From assembly GCA_032622095.1 (NCBI GenBank), contig CP136064.1, forward strand, positions 257,837,863-257,901,862: a stretch of DNA of 64,000 nucleotides. Reading direction: 5' to 3'. Within the stretch, counting starts at the first letter, position 1. Each line of letters begins with the position of its first letter. This document shows, piece after piece, positions 11,894 to 25,706 of the stretch. A program made the position numbers and the translations under genes. Below the pieces are notes generated by a model. That model had not been told where the DNA came from, searched no databases, and saw nothing but the letters and a program-made list of their open reading frames with translations. The DNA comes from Siphonodentalium dalli. Taxonomy: Eukaryota > Mollusca > Scaphopoda > Gadilida > Siphonodentaliidae.

Positions 11894-12639
11894 TCTATTA
11901 TATATTTTGGAAGATCTGTCTGTGTATCTGTCTGTGGTGTGTGTGTGGGGGGGGGGGGGTGTGTGTGTTCGCGATGAACTCGAAAACGGCAGACCCGATT
12001 TCGATGAAACTTCGTATGTGAGGCTACTATCGGCCGGGAAGTGGCATAGGCATATTAATTTTCAGATCCGAGGTAAACTTTTCACGTGCCGAGGTCAAAT
12101 CTGTTTTTACGCCGTTTTGCGCTAATATATTTCAGTTCGGTGCTCACAAATCGATTCGATATAGCGCGAATAATAAATTGCCAGTCATATAATTTGCACG
12201 GTTAGAATCGGTGGCGCTTCCTCTTTCCAATGATGTATCACACGCCTATGTACGTTTAACGTTTCTACCTTAATTATCGGGAAGAACGCAGGACCATGCT
12301 TCGCTCATCGAAAAACATTCCGTAAATATAATTACGCCGTCAACAGATCGTGACGTGATCGCGTTTAACTTTTAACCGGTCGATGTCGCTTTAACTCATC
12401 ACCGACCGAGGTATCCGCAAATCACATTGGGCAATATATATATCTCGGAAACGGGTGGAGCTATCGACTTGAAATTTGGTATGTGAATGTATCTTGCCCC
12501 GGATACGAATTTTATCGGGTCGCCGAGCCCGTGCGACGCCAGCTTCGCGCATGCGCAGACCAGATCTCGGAAACGGGTGGAGCTATCGACTTGAAATTTG
12601 GTTTTTGAATAGCCCGGACGAAGTCGAGTCACCTTCTAG
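11894..12639 (+). mobile_element. Helitron-like element C
   Basis: The left end is TCTATTATATATTTTGGAAG after an A; the right end is CACCTTCTAG followed by T. Just inside the right end a hairpin (CCCGGAC, loop, GTC with GAG) lies about 12 bases from CTAG. A 5' TC, a 3' CTAG preceded by a hairpin, insertion between A and T, and no target duplication are the textbook signature of Helitrons. No Rep/helicase is encoded, so it is non-autonomous. A G-run (about 11947-11959) and GT repeats lie near the left end. The right part (GAGCTATCGACTTGAAATTT) matches the minus-strand elements at 17909-19183. Confidence 0.7.
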
Positions 12640-12651
12640 TATATATATATA

Positions 12652-12674
12652 TCTATTATATATTTTGGAAGATC

Positions 12675-12716
<42 letters not shown>

Positions 12717-13844
12717 CGCGATAAACTCGAAAACGGCGGACCCGATTTCGATGAAACTTGGTATGTGGGGATATTTTCGGCCGGGAAGTGGCATAGGCCT
12801 ATTAATTTGCCCGTGCGACGTGACCTTGACCTTGAAATCGGGTAATTTCAAGGTCAAACGCCCGAATATCACGGGATTTCGATAAAACTTGGTATGTGAG
12901 GGTACTTTCGTATGGGAAGTCTCATAAGCATATTCATTTGCCCGTGCGACGTGACATTGACCTTGAAATCGGGTCAATTCAAGGTCAAATCGCCAATTTT
13001 GTTGGGATTTCGATAAAATGTTATACATAGGGTTGCCTTTGTCCACTGAGTGTTTTGGACGGGTCAAATTGTGACCCCGACCTGACCTTGACCTTCAAAA
13101 TAATCAATTCAAGGTCAAATCGGGTAAAACCGGATGGATTTCGACGGGCACGTTTGTCGTGTACTTTTGTCCGGGCAGTGTTTTAGACTGTTCAAATCGT
13201 GACCCCACTTGACCTTGACCTTCATTATGGACAATTCAAGGTCAAAGCCCGGACGAAGTCGGGTCCGTGCGACGTGACATTGACCTTGAAATCGGGTAAT
13301 TTCAAGGTCAAACGCCCGAATATCACGGGATTTCGATAAAACTTGGTACGTGGGGGTACATAAGGCCGGGGAGTGGCATAAACCTATTAATTTGCCCGTG
13401 CGATGTGACCTTGATCTTGAAATCGGGTCATTTCAAGGTCAAACGCCCGAATATCACGGGATTTCGATGAAACTTGGTATGTGGGGGTACTTTCGTATTG
13501 GGAGTCTCATAAGTATATTCATTTGCCCGTGCGACGTGACCTTGACCTTGAAATCGGGTCAATTCAAGGTCATATCGCCAATTTTTATGGAATTTCGACG
13601 AAATTTGATACGTGGGGTTACTTTTGTCCACTGAGTGTTTTGGACGGGTCGAGTCGTGACCACGACCTGACCTTGACCTTCAAAATGGTCAATTCAAGGT
13701 CAAATCGGCTAAAACCGGATGGATTTCGACGGGCACGTTTGTCGGGTACTTTTGTCCGGGCAGTGTTTTGGACCCCACTTGACCTTGACCTTCAAAATGG
13801 ACAATTCAAGGTCAAAGCCCGGACGAAGTCGGGTCACCTTCTAG
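12652..13844 (+). mobile_element. Helitron-like element D
   Basis: Same left end as element C (TCTATTATATATTTTGGAAG), a (GT)n run at about 12680-12714, and a right end with the CCCGGACGAAGTCGGG hairpin, then TCACCTTCTAG and T. The interior is built of several modules of about 120-130 bp containing CGTGACCTTGACCTTGAAAT, then an inverted TTCAAGGTCA, then GGGATTTCGAT and ACTTGGTATGTG. It lies head to tail with element C, separated by 12 bp of alternating TA. Frames of 80-140 codons on both strands come from the module repeats and are not genes. Confidence 0.7.
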
Positions 13845-16475: not shown

Positions 16476-17378
16476 CATATAACTCGAAACAGGCTATATT
16501 GGCATGTGTACATTGGTATTTCAAAGTAATCCTGACTGATTTAGTCTCCTCCGTATCACCTTAACCCCAAACGCTTGGACATATTGGTCTGTTAGAATAT
16601 AGGACATTTAAGCTAAGCCTGTTCCCACACAAACATTGAATTGAATCATCGATCAAAATGGAAAAGAAAATCATTAGGTTTGGTTGGCGATTATCGCAAT
16701 ACGCCAGGGGAACACCGTGTGCGTAACGTACATGTAACTATCACAAGTATAACGTACTCTGGGGACAACTTATCGCCAATTTCATGCGTAAGATATATAT
16801 TTAAAACATGAATTCAGTTAAATGTTTCTACAGTTATCTGCATGGACTAGATCCCATCCATCTTTCCGACTAAATGCGGGTCATAACTTATGTCTTAATT
16901 TTACAATTGTCTTATGACATCTATAATTATACCACCAGTCTGGCACCAGACTTAAAGTTAAGACCATCTTAAGTTAAGGCCTTGTTCGTGAAACGCGCTT
17001 ATAGATGAACGTTTGAACGTAATGCCAATTTTAAGGATCACAAATATGCCCTTATCTGGTTTAGAACCAACTCTGTTACCACTGGACGGCATATATTGGC
17101 CTAATGTACCATGTACGTAGCCAGCTGAGCCACCGATGCCCACTGGGGCAAAATCCGCAACAAAATAGCCAGATTCAGCAGAGGATATCGGAGATAAACC
17201 ATGCATGCAAACCCATAAAGTTAAAAACTCTATGCCTGACACAGTACATCAGTTGGACATTTCAGACCCACATTTGAATTGTAATATTTAATGTCGTCCT
17301 GATAGTTTGATGTCCCAACCAATATGTTATGTGTTCGTTTAGGACGGGAAACGGATACAAAACATTACCTACAGGAAA

Positions 17379-17408
17379 GGAAACGGATATATATATATAT
17401 CCGTTTCC
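17379..17408. repeat. Perfect 30-bp palindrome GGAAACGG...CCGTTTCC
   Basis: GGAAACGG, alternating AT for 14 bases, then CCGTTTCC. In the second duplication copy the same place holds a perfect 20-bp palindrome, GGGAAACGGATCCGTTTCCC (23999-24018), followed by another CGTTTCCC. The arms are conserved while the spacing differs. Confidence 0.8.
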
Positions 17409-17537
17409 CACTTCATGCACTTGTTATCAGCGAATTATTATTTTATAATTTAATGTTTTTCGCATAGTAACATATGTATTCAATATAGGCCGATCACTCA
17501 GTGAGGGGTCCGGGAAGATGTAACCTATTTTTGGCGT

Positions 17538-17660
17538 CACGTGGGGGTCGCGTGCCGTGATTCGTGACGTCATTGTTCCAAAATGGCGGCGCCCAGTAGC
17601 ATAAGCCGTAGACGCGTAGACAAGTTTTCGGTTGGCAATCACCATGTCAGGTGAATCTTG
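17538..17660 (+). promoter_or_regulatory. Promoter-like block with short ATG-donor segment, copy 1
   Basis: An E-box CACGTG (17538-17543), a perfect CRE TGACGTCA (17565-17572) and a YY1-type CCAAAATGGCGGC (17578-17590) lie in series. About 55 bases on comes CACCATGTCAG followed by GTGAAT (17641-17656), a start codon in a fair context just before a plausible splice donor. YY1-type motifs near transcription starts and very short first coding exons are both known in animals. The downstream exon cannot be identified, so this is inference. Confidence 0.35.
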
Positions 17661-17908
17661 ACTCCTTCAGCGGATGGAACAAGAAGCGGGTGCAATTTAA
17701 ATATATTCCTGGATCCTATTTCTTTGGAAATTAATTACATTTGATTCAAAATGTCGCATGCAGACATTTCGTATAGCGAAATTACAGCCCCAAACGCATA
17801 ATTTTCCGAAAATCGGTTGCCTTGTCAACCGTTCGCAAATTGGTGGTATCTACCCAAAATGTTTGGAAGATTTACAAACTACGGATGATCACCGATATAT
17901 ATATATGA

Positions 17909-18421
17909 CTAGAAGGTGACCCGACTTCGTCCGGGCTATTCAACAACCAAATTTCAAGTCGATAGCTGCACCCGTTTCCGAGATCTGGTCTGCGCATGCG
18001 CGAAGCTGGCGTCGCACGGGCTCGGCGACCCGATAAAATTCGTATCCGGGGCAAAATACATTCACATAGCAAAGTTCAAGTCGATAGCTCTACCCGTTTC
18101 CGAGATCTCGTCTGCGCGTGCGCGAAGCTGGCGTCGCACGGGCTCCGCGACCCGATAAAATTCGTATCCGGGGCAAGATACATTCACATAGCAAATTTCA
18201 AGTCGATAGCTCCACCCGTTTCCGAGATCTCGTCTGCGCATGTGCTGCACGGGCGCCGCACGGGCTCGCCAATACGACAACGCCCACCGCCTGGTCAAAC
18301 TACACATACGTACCAAGTTTCGTCCCGATCGGTCGAGAATCGTAGATTTGTATAAATGACAGACAAACATACATACATACAGACAGACAAACAGACAGAG
18401 GTCTTCAAAATATATATGAGA
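17909..18421 (-). mobile_element. Helitron-like element A (minus strand)
   Basis: Read on the minus strand, it begins TCTCATATATATTTTGAAGA (at 18421) and ends CGAAGTCGGGTCACCTTCTAG (last 20 bases shown without the first C: GAAGTCGGGTCACCTTCTAG; at 17909), followed by T. CCCGGAC and GTCGGG form a hairpin about 11 bases before CTAG. The interior has two or three modules containing AAGTCGATAGCTCCACCCGT and the palindromic CTGCGCATGCGCGAAG. ACAT/ACAG microsatellite lies near the 5' end. No open frame for Rep/helicase is present. Confidence 0.7.
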
Positions 18422-19183
18422 CTAGCCGATGAGCCCGACGTTGTCCGGGCTATTCAAAAACCAAATTTCAAGTCGATAGCTCCACCCGTTTCCGAGATCT
18501 GGTCTGCGTATGCGCGAAGCTGGCGTCGCGCTATTCAAAAACCAAATTTCAAGTCGATAGCTATTCAAAAACCAAATTTCAAGTCGATAGCTCCACCCGT
18601 TTCCGAGATCTGGTCTGCGCATGCGCGAAGCTGAGGCCCGACGTTGTCCGGGCTATTCAAAAACCAAATTTCAAGTCGATAGCTCTACCCAGCACGACGT
18701 TCCAAATTTCAAGTCGATAGGTCTACCCGTTTCCGAGATCGGGTCTGCGCATGCGCGAAGCTGGCGTCGCACGGGCTCGGCGACCCGATTAAATTCGTAT
18801 CCGGTGCAAGATACATTCACATACCAATTTCAAGTCGATAGCTCCACCCGTTTCCGAGATCTGGTCTGCGCATGCGCGAAGCTGCCGTCGCACGGTCTCG
18901 GCGACCCGATAAAATTCGTATCCGGGGCAAGATACATTCACATAGCAACTTTCAAGTCGATAGCTCCACCCGTTTCCGATATCTCGTCTGCGCATGCGCG
19001 AAGCGGGCGCCTCACGGGCTCGCCAATACGACAATGTCCACCGCCTGGTCAAACTACACACACGTACCAAGTTTCGTCCCGATCGGTCGAGAATCGTAGA
19101 TTTGTATAAATGACAAACATACAGACAAACATACAGACAAACATACAAACATACAGACAGAGGTCTTCAAAATATATATGAGA
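18422..19183 (-). mobile_element. Helitron-like element B (minus strand)
   Basis: Its 3' CTAG (18422-18425) directly abuts the 5' TC of element A at 18421. Its 5' end TCTCATATATATTTTG (at 19183) is preceded on the minus strand by A. A CCCGGACAACGTCGGG hairpin lies 12 bases before CTAG. The interior repeats the same modules as element A, with short internal duplications at about 18533-18580. Frames of 100-160 codons across it are repeat products. Confidence 0.7.
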
Positions 19184-20110
19184 TGAGCTGTAGAATTCTG
19201 TCATGACAAATGGTCTGACCCAACATTAAATTAACGCATACATTGCTATAAATTAATATAAAGTAAGCATTTTAATGTTAGAACACGGGGCTTTGGTGGC
19301 CATTTTGAATGGCGCCCTCTGTCGGTGTTGGGTGATTTTCGAGCAAGGCTAGTTCCAGATGTTGGCAAAATATTCCTGGATAATTTAACTTCCGAAATCA
19401 TTTATATATTTGATTCAAAATGTCGCAAACATATCGTAATATAACGAAGTTACAGCCCCCAAATGCATAAATTTCCGAAAATAGGTTGCTATAGGTGGTA
19501 TCTACCCAAAATTTCTAGAAGATTTATAGACTACGGATGATCACCCACATAGTATGAGTTGTCACGCGGAGAATTCTGCCTTGGCAAATGGTCTGACCCA
19601 ACATTGAGTAAACGCACAAATTGCTATAAAATTATATAAAAGCGAGCATTTCTGCAAACAATCACGTCTGTGAGTAATGTTTTCTCAAAAGAATCACCAA
19701 CCAACTTTGCCTTAGACTAATTTCATGAAACTGGGCCTAAACTAATGTAGTTTTAAACATAATTAAATTATTGTAGCGAATTTCTACAAGGTTATCGGTC
19801 AATCCTTATTTCATCTTAAAAGCCCATTTAGTTTTCGAGTCACCGATTATTTTTTTTATAGTGCCGTTATATATGGTTTTATTAACAATCTACATGTATG
19901 ACATAAAATATGATTAAAATACTATAATTCATCACCATTTGGAACGTATGTGTCTCAGGTGCCCAAGCATAAAAGAAAATAGCTGAAATCATAGAAAATT
20001 TCCCACGTTTCGCTCCCAGAATGCAATATAATTCAAACTAAGATATAGAGTTATTCGCCCTCCATTGAAAATAATAGACTTTTCAGAGCAGACCAGATGC
20101 AACTTAATTA
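19184..20110. repeat. Dispersed duplication copy 1, right part
   Basis: Continues the duplication after the Helitron pair and matches 24310-25060 (GGGGCTTTGGTGGCCATTTT, then CACCAACCAACTTTGCCTTA, then CGTTTCGCTCCCAGAATGCA). Within copy 1, 17700-17905 and 19370-19555 are also related to each other (TTTGATTCAAAATGTCGCA, then GGTGGTATCTACCCAAAAT, then CTACGGATGATCACC). Confidence 0.75.
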
Positions 20111-21064
20111 AGCACAGAACATTTTATATATATATCTTTAATTGACCTCCATTACTAAAGATTGTATATATGAACACAATAGTATATAAAGAACATAATA
20201 CAAACGGTCATACATGTATCAACAAATCAAAGTATTTACATATAAATACAATTCTCGAGTTGGGTCTGCGCTCTTATCTGCATGTACCGTCCAAATCAAA
20301 ACAGTTCAGCATGACTACATGCGTTGCAATGCTTCAAGCGACAACATGTTTGAAAATTTGAATTGGAATGTCATCATCTGTAATCAATTGATCGCCCTCA
20401 ATTTCTGATAAGTTCCCAAGGAGCCAGGGGGGTGGAAAACAGTTTTTTCCAGGCACGTATGCCGGGGTGGGTGGGTGGTCGATAGGACCAACAAACAATT
20501 TTTTCCGCAACTCAAAAATATTTTTCCTGCAAGTCTTTTTGACTGTTTTTGCAATGAGTTTGGCTTAAAACACATCTATATGTCAATATTAACATAAATG
20601 ACAAATTTCATGATGATCAGACAAACAGTATAGCCTGTAGCCCATGCTAATGGATTGAATTTTGAAATCCAAGATGGCTGCTGGTAGCCATGTTTTTTTT
20701 TAACGAATAACCCCAAAATGACTTGTTCCTAATTACATGTCAATGTTCACATCAATGACTAATAGTATGCACAGAAATTCATATACAACTATTTACAGTG
20801 AAATTCCCCGCGCAAATCTCTGTTTTAGGGGGGTGGGTGTCAAAAAATGGTCGGAAAAAACTGCCGAAAACGGAAAAAAATTTGGACGCGGGGGTGGGTG
20901 GGTCCCAACAAGGGTCGAAAGTCAAAAATCAGCATACGTGCCTGCAAATTTTTTCCGACCCCCCCCCCGAAGGCAAGAAAACCATGGTCAGAAATGGTAA
21001 CGCCACCAAGATCATATAATTAGCCATAAATATAAATTATAATATAATTATAATATAAAATATT
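20111..21064. repeat. Inverted G-rich repeats plus fragment of the TTTAGCTC family
   Basis: GGCACGTATGCCGGGGTGGG near 20453 and GCATACGTGCCTGCAAATTT near 20931, each beside TTTTTTCC and G/C runs, are inverted relatives about 480 bp apart. Between them, about 20580-20770 (minus strand) is a fragment of the module found at 29-48 kb (AAATCCAAGATGGCTGCTGG, CCCCAAAATGACT). Frames in 20170-21019 are short and overlapping. Confidence 0.5.
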
Positions 21065-23448: not shown

Positions 23449-24210
23449 ACGATCAAATTAAAGTGAAAATATGGCCGCCCGTTCACTCGCGGTCATAGAT
23501 CTGTCGGATTATTTAATTTAGCGCTATGCAAGGGAGTCTTTGTGGTTATGTACTTAATTCGATGTTTAAACGCGGCAGCATCATTTGGAATCTAACATGC
23601 CACATTGTTAAATTTTCCGGTATCTGGGCTGTTTTGTTGTCCCCCATAGAACCAAAAGCCGCGATCTTAAGGATCACAAATATGCCTTATCTGGTTTAGA
23701 ACCAGCTCTGCTACCACTGGATGGCATATATTGGCCTAATGTACCATGCACGTAGGCAGCTGTGCCAACTGAGCCACCGAGGCCCCATGGGGCAAAATCC
23801 GCAACAAAATAGCCAGATTCAGCAGAGGATATCGGAGATAAACCATGCATGCAAACCCATAATAGTTAGAAACTCTATGCATGACACAGTACATCAGTTG
23901 GACAGTTGGACATTTCAGACACACATTTAAATTGTAATATTTAATGTCGTCCTGATAGTTTGATGTCCCAACCAATATGTTATGTGTTCGTTTAGGACGG
24001 GAAACGGATCCGTTTCCCAAAACATTACCTATACAGGACGGGAATATATATCCGTTTCCCACTTCATGCACTTGTTGTCAGCGAATGATTCGTTTATTAT
24101 TAAATGTTTTGCGCATAGTAACATATGTATTCTATATAGGCCGATCACTCAGTGAGGGGTCCGGGAAGATTTAAACTATTTTTGGTGTCACCTGGGAGTA
24201 GCTTGCCGTG

Positions 24211-24310
24211 ATTCGTGACGTCATTGTTCCAAAATGGCGGCACCCAGTAGCCTAATTAAGCCGTAGACGCGTAAACAAGTTTTCGGTTGGCAATCACCAT
24301 GGCAGGTGAA
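24211..24310 (+). promoter_or_regulatory. Promoter-like block with short ATG-donor segment, copy 2
   Basis: The CRE TGACGTCA (24216-24223), YY1-type CCAAAATGGCGGC (24229-24241) and CACCATGGCAG followed by GTGAAT (24297-24311) are kept in the same order and spacing as in copy 1. The start context is a full Kozak-like CACCATGG here. The E-box of copy 1 is changed (CACCTG). Confidence 0.35.
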
Positions 24311-25060
24311 TCTTGACTTTAATGTTAGAAAACGGGGCTTTGGTGGCCATTTTGAATGGCGCCCTCTGTCTGTGTTGGGTGATTTTCGAGCAAAGCTAGT
24401 TCCAGTTGTTGGCAAAATATTCCTGGATAATTTAACTTCGGAAATAATTTATATTTGATTCAAAATGTCGCAAACATATCGTCATATATAGCGAAGTTAC
24501 AGCCCCCAAATGCATAAATTTCCGAAAATAGGTTGCTATAGCAACCGGTCGCAATTTGGTGGTATCTACCCAAAATTTCAAGAAGATTTATAGACTACGG
24601 ATGATCACCCATATAGTATGAGTTGTCACGCGGAGAATTCTGCCTTGGCAAATGGTCTGACCCAACATTGAGTAAACGCACAAATTGCTATAAAATTAAA
24701 TAAAAGCAAGCATTTCTGCAAACAATCACGTTTGTGAGTAATGTTTTCTCAAAAGAATCACCAACCAACTTTGCCTTAGACTAATTTCATGAAACCGATT
24801 ATTATTTTTTATAGTGCCTTTATATATGGTTTTATTAACAATCTATGACATAAAATATGATTAAAATACTATAATTCATCACCATTTGGAACGTCTGTGT
24901 CGCAGGTGCCCATAGCATAATAGAAAAAAGCTGAAATCATAGAAAATTTCCCACGTTTCGCTCCCAGAATGCAACATAAATCAAACTAAGATATAGAGTT
25001 ATTCGCCCCCATTGAAAATAATAGACTTTTCAGAGCAGACCAGATGCAACTTAAGCACAG

Positions 25061-25706
25061 AACAGTTTATTACACCGAATAAGTTGCTAAGACAAATGGA
25101 GCTTCCTCTTTCAAGTGGTATATACTGTGGGATATATTTTATATAATGTGATATGGGGATTCGAAAATTAAGTGGTCCTTTAAATGCGGTCAACCAATCG
25201 TATTTATATAGTTTAGTTGTCTTTTGTAGGGAAAACAACACAGTATTTATCGAACCCTGGGCTACAAAGTTATTTCTTTCTCGATGGCGACAGCACCAAT
25301 TCTCACAACAGTATACATCTTGTGATTTGAAATTTGCCGTACACTGGCATCTGACGTTTAAGTCCAATTGCTTGCAAATGCGCTGAAAATGACCTATATA
25401 TGATATTGTTAACGTAAATCAGGCGCGTATATCGTTTTGGGATATAGGGAAAGTGCAAAGGGGGCGGGGCACACATCGGGGCGCGTTACAGGCCCCTGTG
25501 AAATGACCCAAGAAAATGCCACCCTGTTCTTGATTGATATAACATCTTCACGAAACCATTGATGACTCGAGAAAAATTAAGAGGGTGTATTAAATATGCG
25601 TTTTAGATCTTATGATAGATATTTCCCCGTACAGGAACGCACTATAATTAAACTGCTCAACTCGTCGTCGATAATCCACCAAGGCCATTGAACATATTTC
25701 TGAATT
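25061..25706. other. Intergenic; edge of a dispersed repeat
   Basis: Positions 24790-25180 (ending ATTCGAAAATTAAGTGGTCC) match, in opposite orientation, 40345-40785. From 25200 to 25700 nothing is recognised. The frames at 24999-25386 overlap on both strands. Confidence 0.45.

Follow-up and report, generated by a model that had tools for sequence, protein, structure and literature searches.

How two Helitron-like elements came to lie head to tail within a single A–T site, without a base between them, is the question raised by this locus of Siphonodentalium dalli. The window, that is the whole stretch of 64,000 nucleotides to which all positions without a contig label refer, lies on contig C4 (257837863-257901862) of a genome assembly of 2.23 Gb in 9 contigs. 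The original prediction described two such elements, A and B, together with an empty paralogous site, and offered rolling-circle read-through or repeated targeting as explanations.

Two Helitrons in one A–T site

The following features were delimited for the pair and its empty site.

18422..19183, minus strand: Helitron B, non-autonomous, 762 bp, with the 5' TC at 19183-19182 and the 3' CTAG at 18425-18422
17909..18421, minus strand: Helitron A, non-autonomous, 513 bp, with the 5' TC at 18421-18420 and the 3' CTAG at 17912-17909
18420..18425, minus strand: head-to-tail joint CTAG–TC without an intervening base, the 3' end of B abutting the 5' end of A
17947..19070, minus strand: internal repeat of about 122 bp (126-nt reference), eight copies across both A and B
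18434..18449, minus strand: 3' hairpin of B, CCCGGACAACGTCGGG, 12 nt from the end
17920..17935, minus strand: 3' hairpin of A, CCCGGACGAAGTCGGG, with a weak stem, 11 nt from the end
18637..18652, minus strand: second, internal copy of the 3' hairpin within B, without CTAG, also present in the unit of about 678 bp at locus L056
24566..24692, plus strand: paralogous empty site, with a second copy near 19502-19628

Direct reading of the minus strand gave the layout ...CTACAGCTCA / TCTCATATATATTTTGAAGACC...(B)...CCCGGACAACGTCGGGCTCATCGGCTAG / TCTCATATATATTTTGAAGACC...(A)...CCCGGACGAAGTCGGGTCACCTTCTAG / TCATATATATATATCGGTGATC, in which slashes mark the borders. The CTAG of B directly precedes the TC of A and the pair occupies one A–T site, with 17908 and 19184 as flanking bases and A and T as the outer flanks, so that the predicted arrangement was borne out. 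Both elements start with TCTCATATATATTTTGAAGACCTCTGTCTG, followed by a TCTG/TATG-rich stretch, the repeats of about 122 bp and a short palindrome 11–12 nt upstream of the CTAG end. Folded as DNA, the hairpin of B was predicted at -6.4 kcal/mol (z -1.88, equalled by 11 of 200 shuffles). The fold of the A hairpin (-3.3 kcal/mol) and that of a further element, C, described below, did not exceed shuffled sequences, and at a copy of the 3' palindrome at 12613 the hairpin was absent from the predicted fold.

Judged by these termini, A and B are two non-autonomous Helitrons of the canonical type (Helitron1), and the Helitron-like identity given in the original prediction holds. The 5' TC and 3' CTRR ends of that type are present as TC and CTAG in A, B, C and the fetched stacks, the palindrome lies at the usual place (about 10–12 nt upstream of the 3' end) with mixed fold strength, the insertion is between A and T without a consistent target duplication, and relatives encoding Rep and a Pif1-type helicase share the right terminus. 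The elements do not have the TT target of Helentrons and HINEs, the A–T target and the TC and CTAG ends standing in its place; as to the subterminal inverted repeats of that group, a search of 17850-19250 for inverted repeats of at least 30 nt found none. A retroposon on the plus strand was considered and rejected, given the precision of both ends and the lack of a consistent target duplication.

When 17690-17908 was joined to 19185-19330, omitting base 19184, and used as query, the flanks of the pair aligned to 19370-19690 and 24390-24760, both free of an insert. The predicted empty paralogue therefore exists in two copies, yet it could not be defined base by base: about 25 nt around the site are unlike between filled and empty copies, with a TA tract on one side and TGAGCTGTA versus TGAGTTGTCACGCGGA on the other. 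The empty site is sound, yet not base-perfect, and on its evidence alone a footprint could be present. A 3-nt match, TCA, spans both sides of the pair and may be due to chance. A target duplication, which would have spoken against the proposal, was looked for and no consistent one was seen: no flank match occurs in L060, in L074 or at the border at 987 of L063. The segment that supplies the empty site, host or repeat, belongs to a diverged duplication (17156-20127 and 23664-25070, pieces 81–93% identical).

Other genomic copies agree that the CTAG and TC positions are true element borders. In 20 loci picked for similarity to the pair, with a script that demanded neither A nor T, A stood before 16 of 17 TC ends without a preceding CTAG and G before the remaining one, after four misregistered script matches had been dropped. 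Every listed 3' CTAG in these loci precedes T, including 11 without a left-end-like sequence next to them. Another count, with A before all 24 units lacking a preceding CTAG, is partly circular, as the script required A or CTAG. Solo copies often sit just before TATATA.

Further Helitrons in the window and Rep/helicase elements

In a further cluster, on the plus strand and absent from the original prediction, the 5' ends lie at 11894 and 12652, the CTAG ends at 12639 and 13844. Its two members are separated by a (TA)n spacer of 12 bp and form no direct joint.

11894..12639, plus strand: element D, with a C-type 5' end, a unique middle of about 380 bp and an A-type 3' end
12652..13844, plus strand: Helitron C of another subfamily, 1193 bp, with the 5' end TCTATTATATATTTTGG, (TA)n flanks and the same right end as a Rep/helicase element on C6

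Element D may be a single chimeric Helitron; otherwise it consists of a 5' fragment followed by a separate 3' piece of 197 bp (12443-12639). This piece, on the plus strand, has TATATATA before its start TCTCGGAAACGGG and TATATATA again after its CTAG; it was also observed at L028 (minus strand, position 2538), and it may represent a minimal Helitron begun at a cryptic TC in the internal repeat. Among the fetched loci, the context TATATA before TCTCGG occurred once more. Elsewhere in the window, between 30398 and 48000, several long arrays of repeats of about 155–165 bp, all of one family, form blocks separated by a few kb.

Of 457 candidates for PF14214, 150 were scored in a profile search and gave 151 matches; those listed all lie above the curated cut-off, and none of 14 control genomes matched. 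Twenty of the listed matches lie in frames of 1,500–1,700 amino acids and some in longer frames; from these long open frames, Rep/helicase activity may be recent. The middles of the Rep/helicase elements were taken from the PF14214 frame lengths, and the scan for PF05970 and PF21530 covered the copies on C3 and C1. On C6, the copy at 36914596 (minus strand, PF14214, frame of 1605 amino acids) has the right end AAAGCCCGGACGAAGTCGGGTCACCTTCTAG found in element C; its 3' terminus CAATTCAAGGTCAAAGCCCGGACGAAGTCGGGTCACCTTCTAG is followed directly by TCTATTATATATTTTGG. The C4 copy follows it as far as GTCACC (94.9% identity over 354 bp), beyond which the two diverge. The C3 copy carries PF14214 and PF05970, and a member of another family adjoins its terminus in a CTAG–TC joint. 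The C1 copy, at 13743912 on the minus strand with a frame of 1614 amino acids, has PF21530 in its C-terminal piece; it is flanked by a TCTCAT left end, which has the 5' module of A and B, and by a right end CCCGGACAACGTCGGGCACATCGGCTAG.

The autonomous Rep/helicase partner with the same ends that had been anticipated was thus recovered as to its right end (C6 and C4), and its left end as a candidate beside the C1 copy; no left end was recognised in the leftward sequence read for the C4 and C6 copies. C1:13739545-13748219 (minus strand) was considered as a complete autonomous partner and rejected, as its last 60 bp or so contain a left-end-like motif of their own and its right end may be a separate small piece. 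Nesting may have occurred there, and the right ends of the C6 and C4 copies are firmer than that of C1. A Helitron of a second Rep/helicase family, which has the hairpin CCCGTC...GACGGG, also abuts another left end, TCTATATATATAAAACCCGTCG (L093, C3:17614700-17617500).

Joints across the genome and their possible origin

The exact 26-nt joint, CTAG followed by TCTCATATATATTTTGAAGACC, occurs 8,207 times in the genome and its reversed-letter control 0 times, a frequency beyond chance. Exact TCTCATATATATTTTGAAGACC left ends preceded by A number 7,593, and joints make up 51.9% of both sets together. Some of the A–TC left ends are themselves joints that lack the final G, as are L069 and L073 among 20 sampled. 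These 20 borders on C1 were taken from the first 25 listed, omitting four already fetched (all in stacks) and a second border inside L069; eight have another left end right after the CTAG, nine have other, mostly TA-rich sequence there and three have no recognisable 3' end in the stretch read. The families joined are TCTCAT, TCTCCT, TCTATT and one with the hairpin GCCGCCAGTGGCGG. Viral contigs contained no match, and bacterial and archaeal contigs gave seven pattern matches in unrelated prokaryotes.

The best explanation of these joints, and in our estimate a very probable one, is that Helitrons inserted one after another, with self-targeting, at the A–TC left edge of copies already resident. 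Element A would have inserted between host A and T, and B later between host A and the T of the 5' TC of A, itself an A–T site, giving host A, B, A and host T in this order with a G–T joint inside. That A preceded B here is inferred from the A–T rule, because host A and resident T form a legal A–T site and the inner G–T joint does not. The 5' edge of a resident Helitron would then be a preferred landing site, used thousands of times, and since A–TC is recreated at each new left edge, stacks would grow leftwards. Rep might turn this left end into a hot target, beyond AT-richness alone, by recognising or nicking it.

Read-through, in which one transposition event lays down several units as a concatemer, would equally give perfect joints without a spare base, and Helraiser circles are described in PMC4778049 as carrying exactly the CTAG–TC joint. 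For A and B it is contradicted: they are 91.5% identical to each other, and each has closer relatives elsewhere at about 96.5–97% (B about 97%, 96.8%, over 658 bp to a subfamily of about 678 bp at L056 and L057; A 96.5% over 484 bp to L048). The near-identical units of a rolling-circle dimer are absent, and because of these closer relatives the pair is not a simple dimer of this kind. Of the two mechanisms originally offered, repeated targeting therefore stood and read-through did not hold for this pair. Among 103 units compared in fetched stacks (matches over 80% of length), 59 matched both inside and outside their own stack, of which 39 matched best outside, even with so small a comparison set, and 20 inside, seven of the latter belonging to one higher-order array; 37 further units had an outside match and no such match in their own stack. 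Joints moreover cross families with unlike hairpins. At C2:150.05 Mb (C2:150051000), neighbours of 678 bp are 99.85% identical versus 96.3–96.5% elsewhere, as read-through would predict; these neighbours and the blocks at C3:109.6 Mb look like later duplication or true concatemers. Taken over all joints, we regard read-through as very unlikely.

A resident copy might also recombine homologously with an excised circle; such recombination could draw on the joint carried by circles (PMC4778049) and on the homology provided by the internal repeats. It predicts joints between the 3' and 5' ends of one circle, hence of one subfamily, and hybrid outer units; the 2,681 joints of a young 3' end with an old 5' end contradict it for mixed joints, and it is hardly credible as a general account. 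Mobilisation of a ready-made B-A composite, with the first terminator skipped, has precedents in the end bypass and composite Helitrons described in PMC4778049 and PMC3288121. The search for other B-A junctions did recover the same exact joint at genome scale, as given above, but no second B-A composite: among the 40 of 6,213 candidates that were scored, the next-best match to the whole pair was 87%, which makes this explanation extremely improbable.

Amplification after insertion, by which a few founding joints would have been multiplied through unequal crossing-over into satellite-like arrays, is suggested by several loci. A block of three units (about 556, 458 and 350 bp) recurs at C3:109.6 Mb, joint spacings recur at C1:31.74-31.76 Mb, and among the 20 sampled borders flanks are common to L067 and L068 and to L077 and L079, and nearly so to L071 and L072, which may thus be copies of each other. 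Local duplication or copying of units does occur at C3:109.6 Mb, C1:31.74 Mb and C2:150.05 Mb. The higher-order-like stacks L046 (C3:109599500-109607500) and C1:31736875-31757835 are possible examples of a step from transposon to satellite. Against amplification as the general source, within C1:1-30 Mb a listed joint lies at most 1.2 kb downstream of 40 of 100 A–TC starts, in scattered places and with many unit lengths, and we consider it unlikely; in the same interval, 46 of 96 listed joints were not reached from any listed A–TC start.

A plain preference for A–T in AT-rich surroundings might also bring insertions to left ends. Helraiser favours AT and AT-rich flanks, most on the 3' side, according to PMC4778049, left ends contain TATATATTTTG and solo copies, as mentioned, often precede TATATA. 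With 5,000–300,000 old left ends assumed, 0.2–10 joints of a young 3' end with an old left end are expected on random A–T sites and 2.6–156 if insertions are confined to AT-rich A–T sites. Under these assumptions the expectation is at least 17-fold too small, and the true gap is smaller, as only exact young left ends (15,800) and the base composition of the window scaled to the genome were used, which makes the expectations too low. The enrichment at resident left ends is therefore a bounded guess; targeting seems to exceed what A–T preference could give, which by itself is decidedly unlikely to account for the joints, and some feature of resident left ends probably attracts insertions.

Serial insertion at the left edge also fits the order of subfamilies within stacks. 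A young 3' end followed by an old left end (ATCGGCTAG then TCTATTATATATTTTGG) occurs 2,681 times in the genome as an exact match. The reverse order was estimated from 77 CTAG–TCTCAT joints, which remain of the first 100 listed once 23 in the C1:31.74-31.76 Mb array are set aside; the 77 come from the start of one chromosome and often from the same stacks. The upstream 3' ends were young in 58, of hairpin family F in 12 and of a degenerate F in one, old in five and other in one. Extrapolated from 5 of 77, about 533 of the 8,207 joints are old–young (95% interval 176–1,191 if joints were independent, which those in the same stack are not), and the ratio of young–old to old–young is near 5 (2.3–15), its second term being an estimate. 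Within fetched loci the two orders were counted 23 versus 1, biased by the choice of loci. Mean pairwise identity of left modules is 83.8% for the old and 89.4% for the young subfamily (20 each), and the greater diversity is expected if the old one is older.

Leftward growth rests on this subfamily order, because divergence among TCTC-type neighbours showed no significant trend: of 47 pairs, the downstream unit was more diverged from the consensus in 24, less in 22 and tied in one (p=0.17), and the first and last units of 20 stacks gave p=0.20. The old–young order in 5 of 77 joints means that growth is not strictly one-way or that old types still move. Whether several families use the resident left end as a true docking site, where Rep recognises or nicks A–TC and the incoming strand is joined, we judge to be an even chance. 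If so, roughly one in two young copies whose left end is intact would sit directly behind another Helitron, and stacks would preserve successive waves in layers and seed satellite-like arrays.

Comparison with known systems

Helitrons joined head to tail are already known from maize and bats and tandem arrays from plants, and self-insertion has been proposed for fungi. Stacking at genome scale with mixing of families and subfamily order was not reported in the literature searched, which takes in few subscription papers. The arguments for read-through and for repeated insertion have so far drawn on single pairs; the 8,207 exact joints of this genome, with many of them linking different subfamilies, supply deciding statistics and speak for elements inserted serially under strong self-targeting. 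They also suggest how dispersed Helitrons could turn into satellite-like arrays, and landing on their own kind might spare genes.

The oyster Cg_HINE Helentrons, as characterised in parts of PMC7492417, are likewise rolling-circle elements of the non-autonomous kind, in which a microsatellite lies close to the left end, tandem repeats occupy the centre and a palindrome is present at the 3' side; they differ in Helentron ends bearing subterminal inverted repeats, of 11–12 nt, and in TT targets, compared with the TC and CTAG ends and A–T target here. Helraiser (PMC4778049, PMC5876387) shares the TC and CTAG ends, a hairpin 11 nt from the 3' end, the AT target and a RepHel enzyme, and differs in that excerpts of both papers are silent on any preference for the left ends of resident copies. 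Self-insertion has been proposed for the fungal FoHeli and a Metarhizium triple in the relevant passages of PMC5148889; these are single cases with non-canonical ends, whereas TC and CTAG ends are found here at genome scale.

Tandem Helitrons of Myotis (Pritham and Feschotte 2007), in the account given in PMC2267711, have similarly perfect head-to-tail joints, viewed as read-through from one event; they are read there as tandem repeats of elements, whereas the units here are mostly unlike. The closest parallel is the maize pair, for which the passages concerned (Du et al. 2008, PMC2267711) describe a CTAG–TC joint without a spare A between two different elements and consider, as one of two orders, canonical insertion between host A and the T of the resident 5' TC. 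Joint and models are the same in both; maize offers one pair with the insertion order left open in that account, and S. dalli thousands of joints, with mixed families and a subfamily order.
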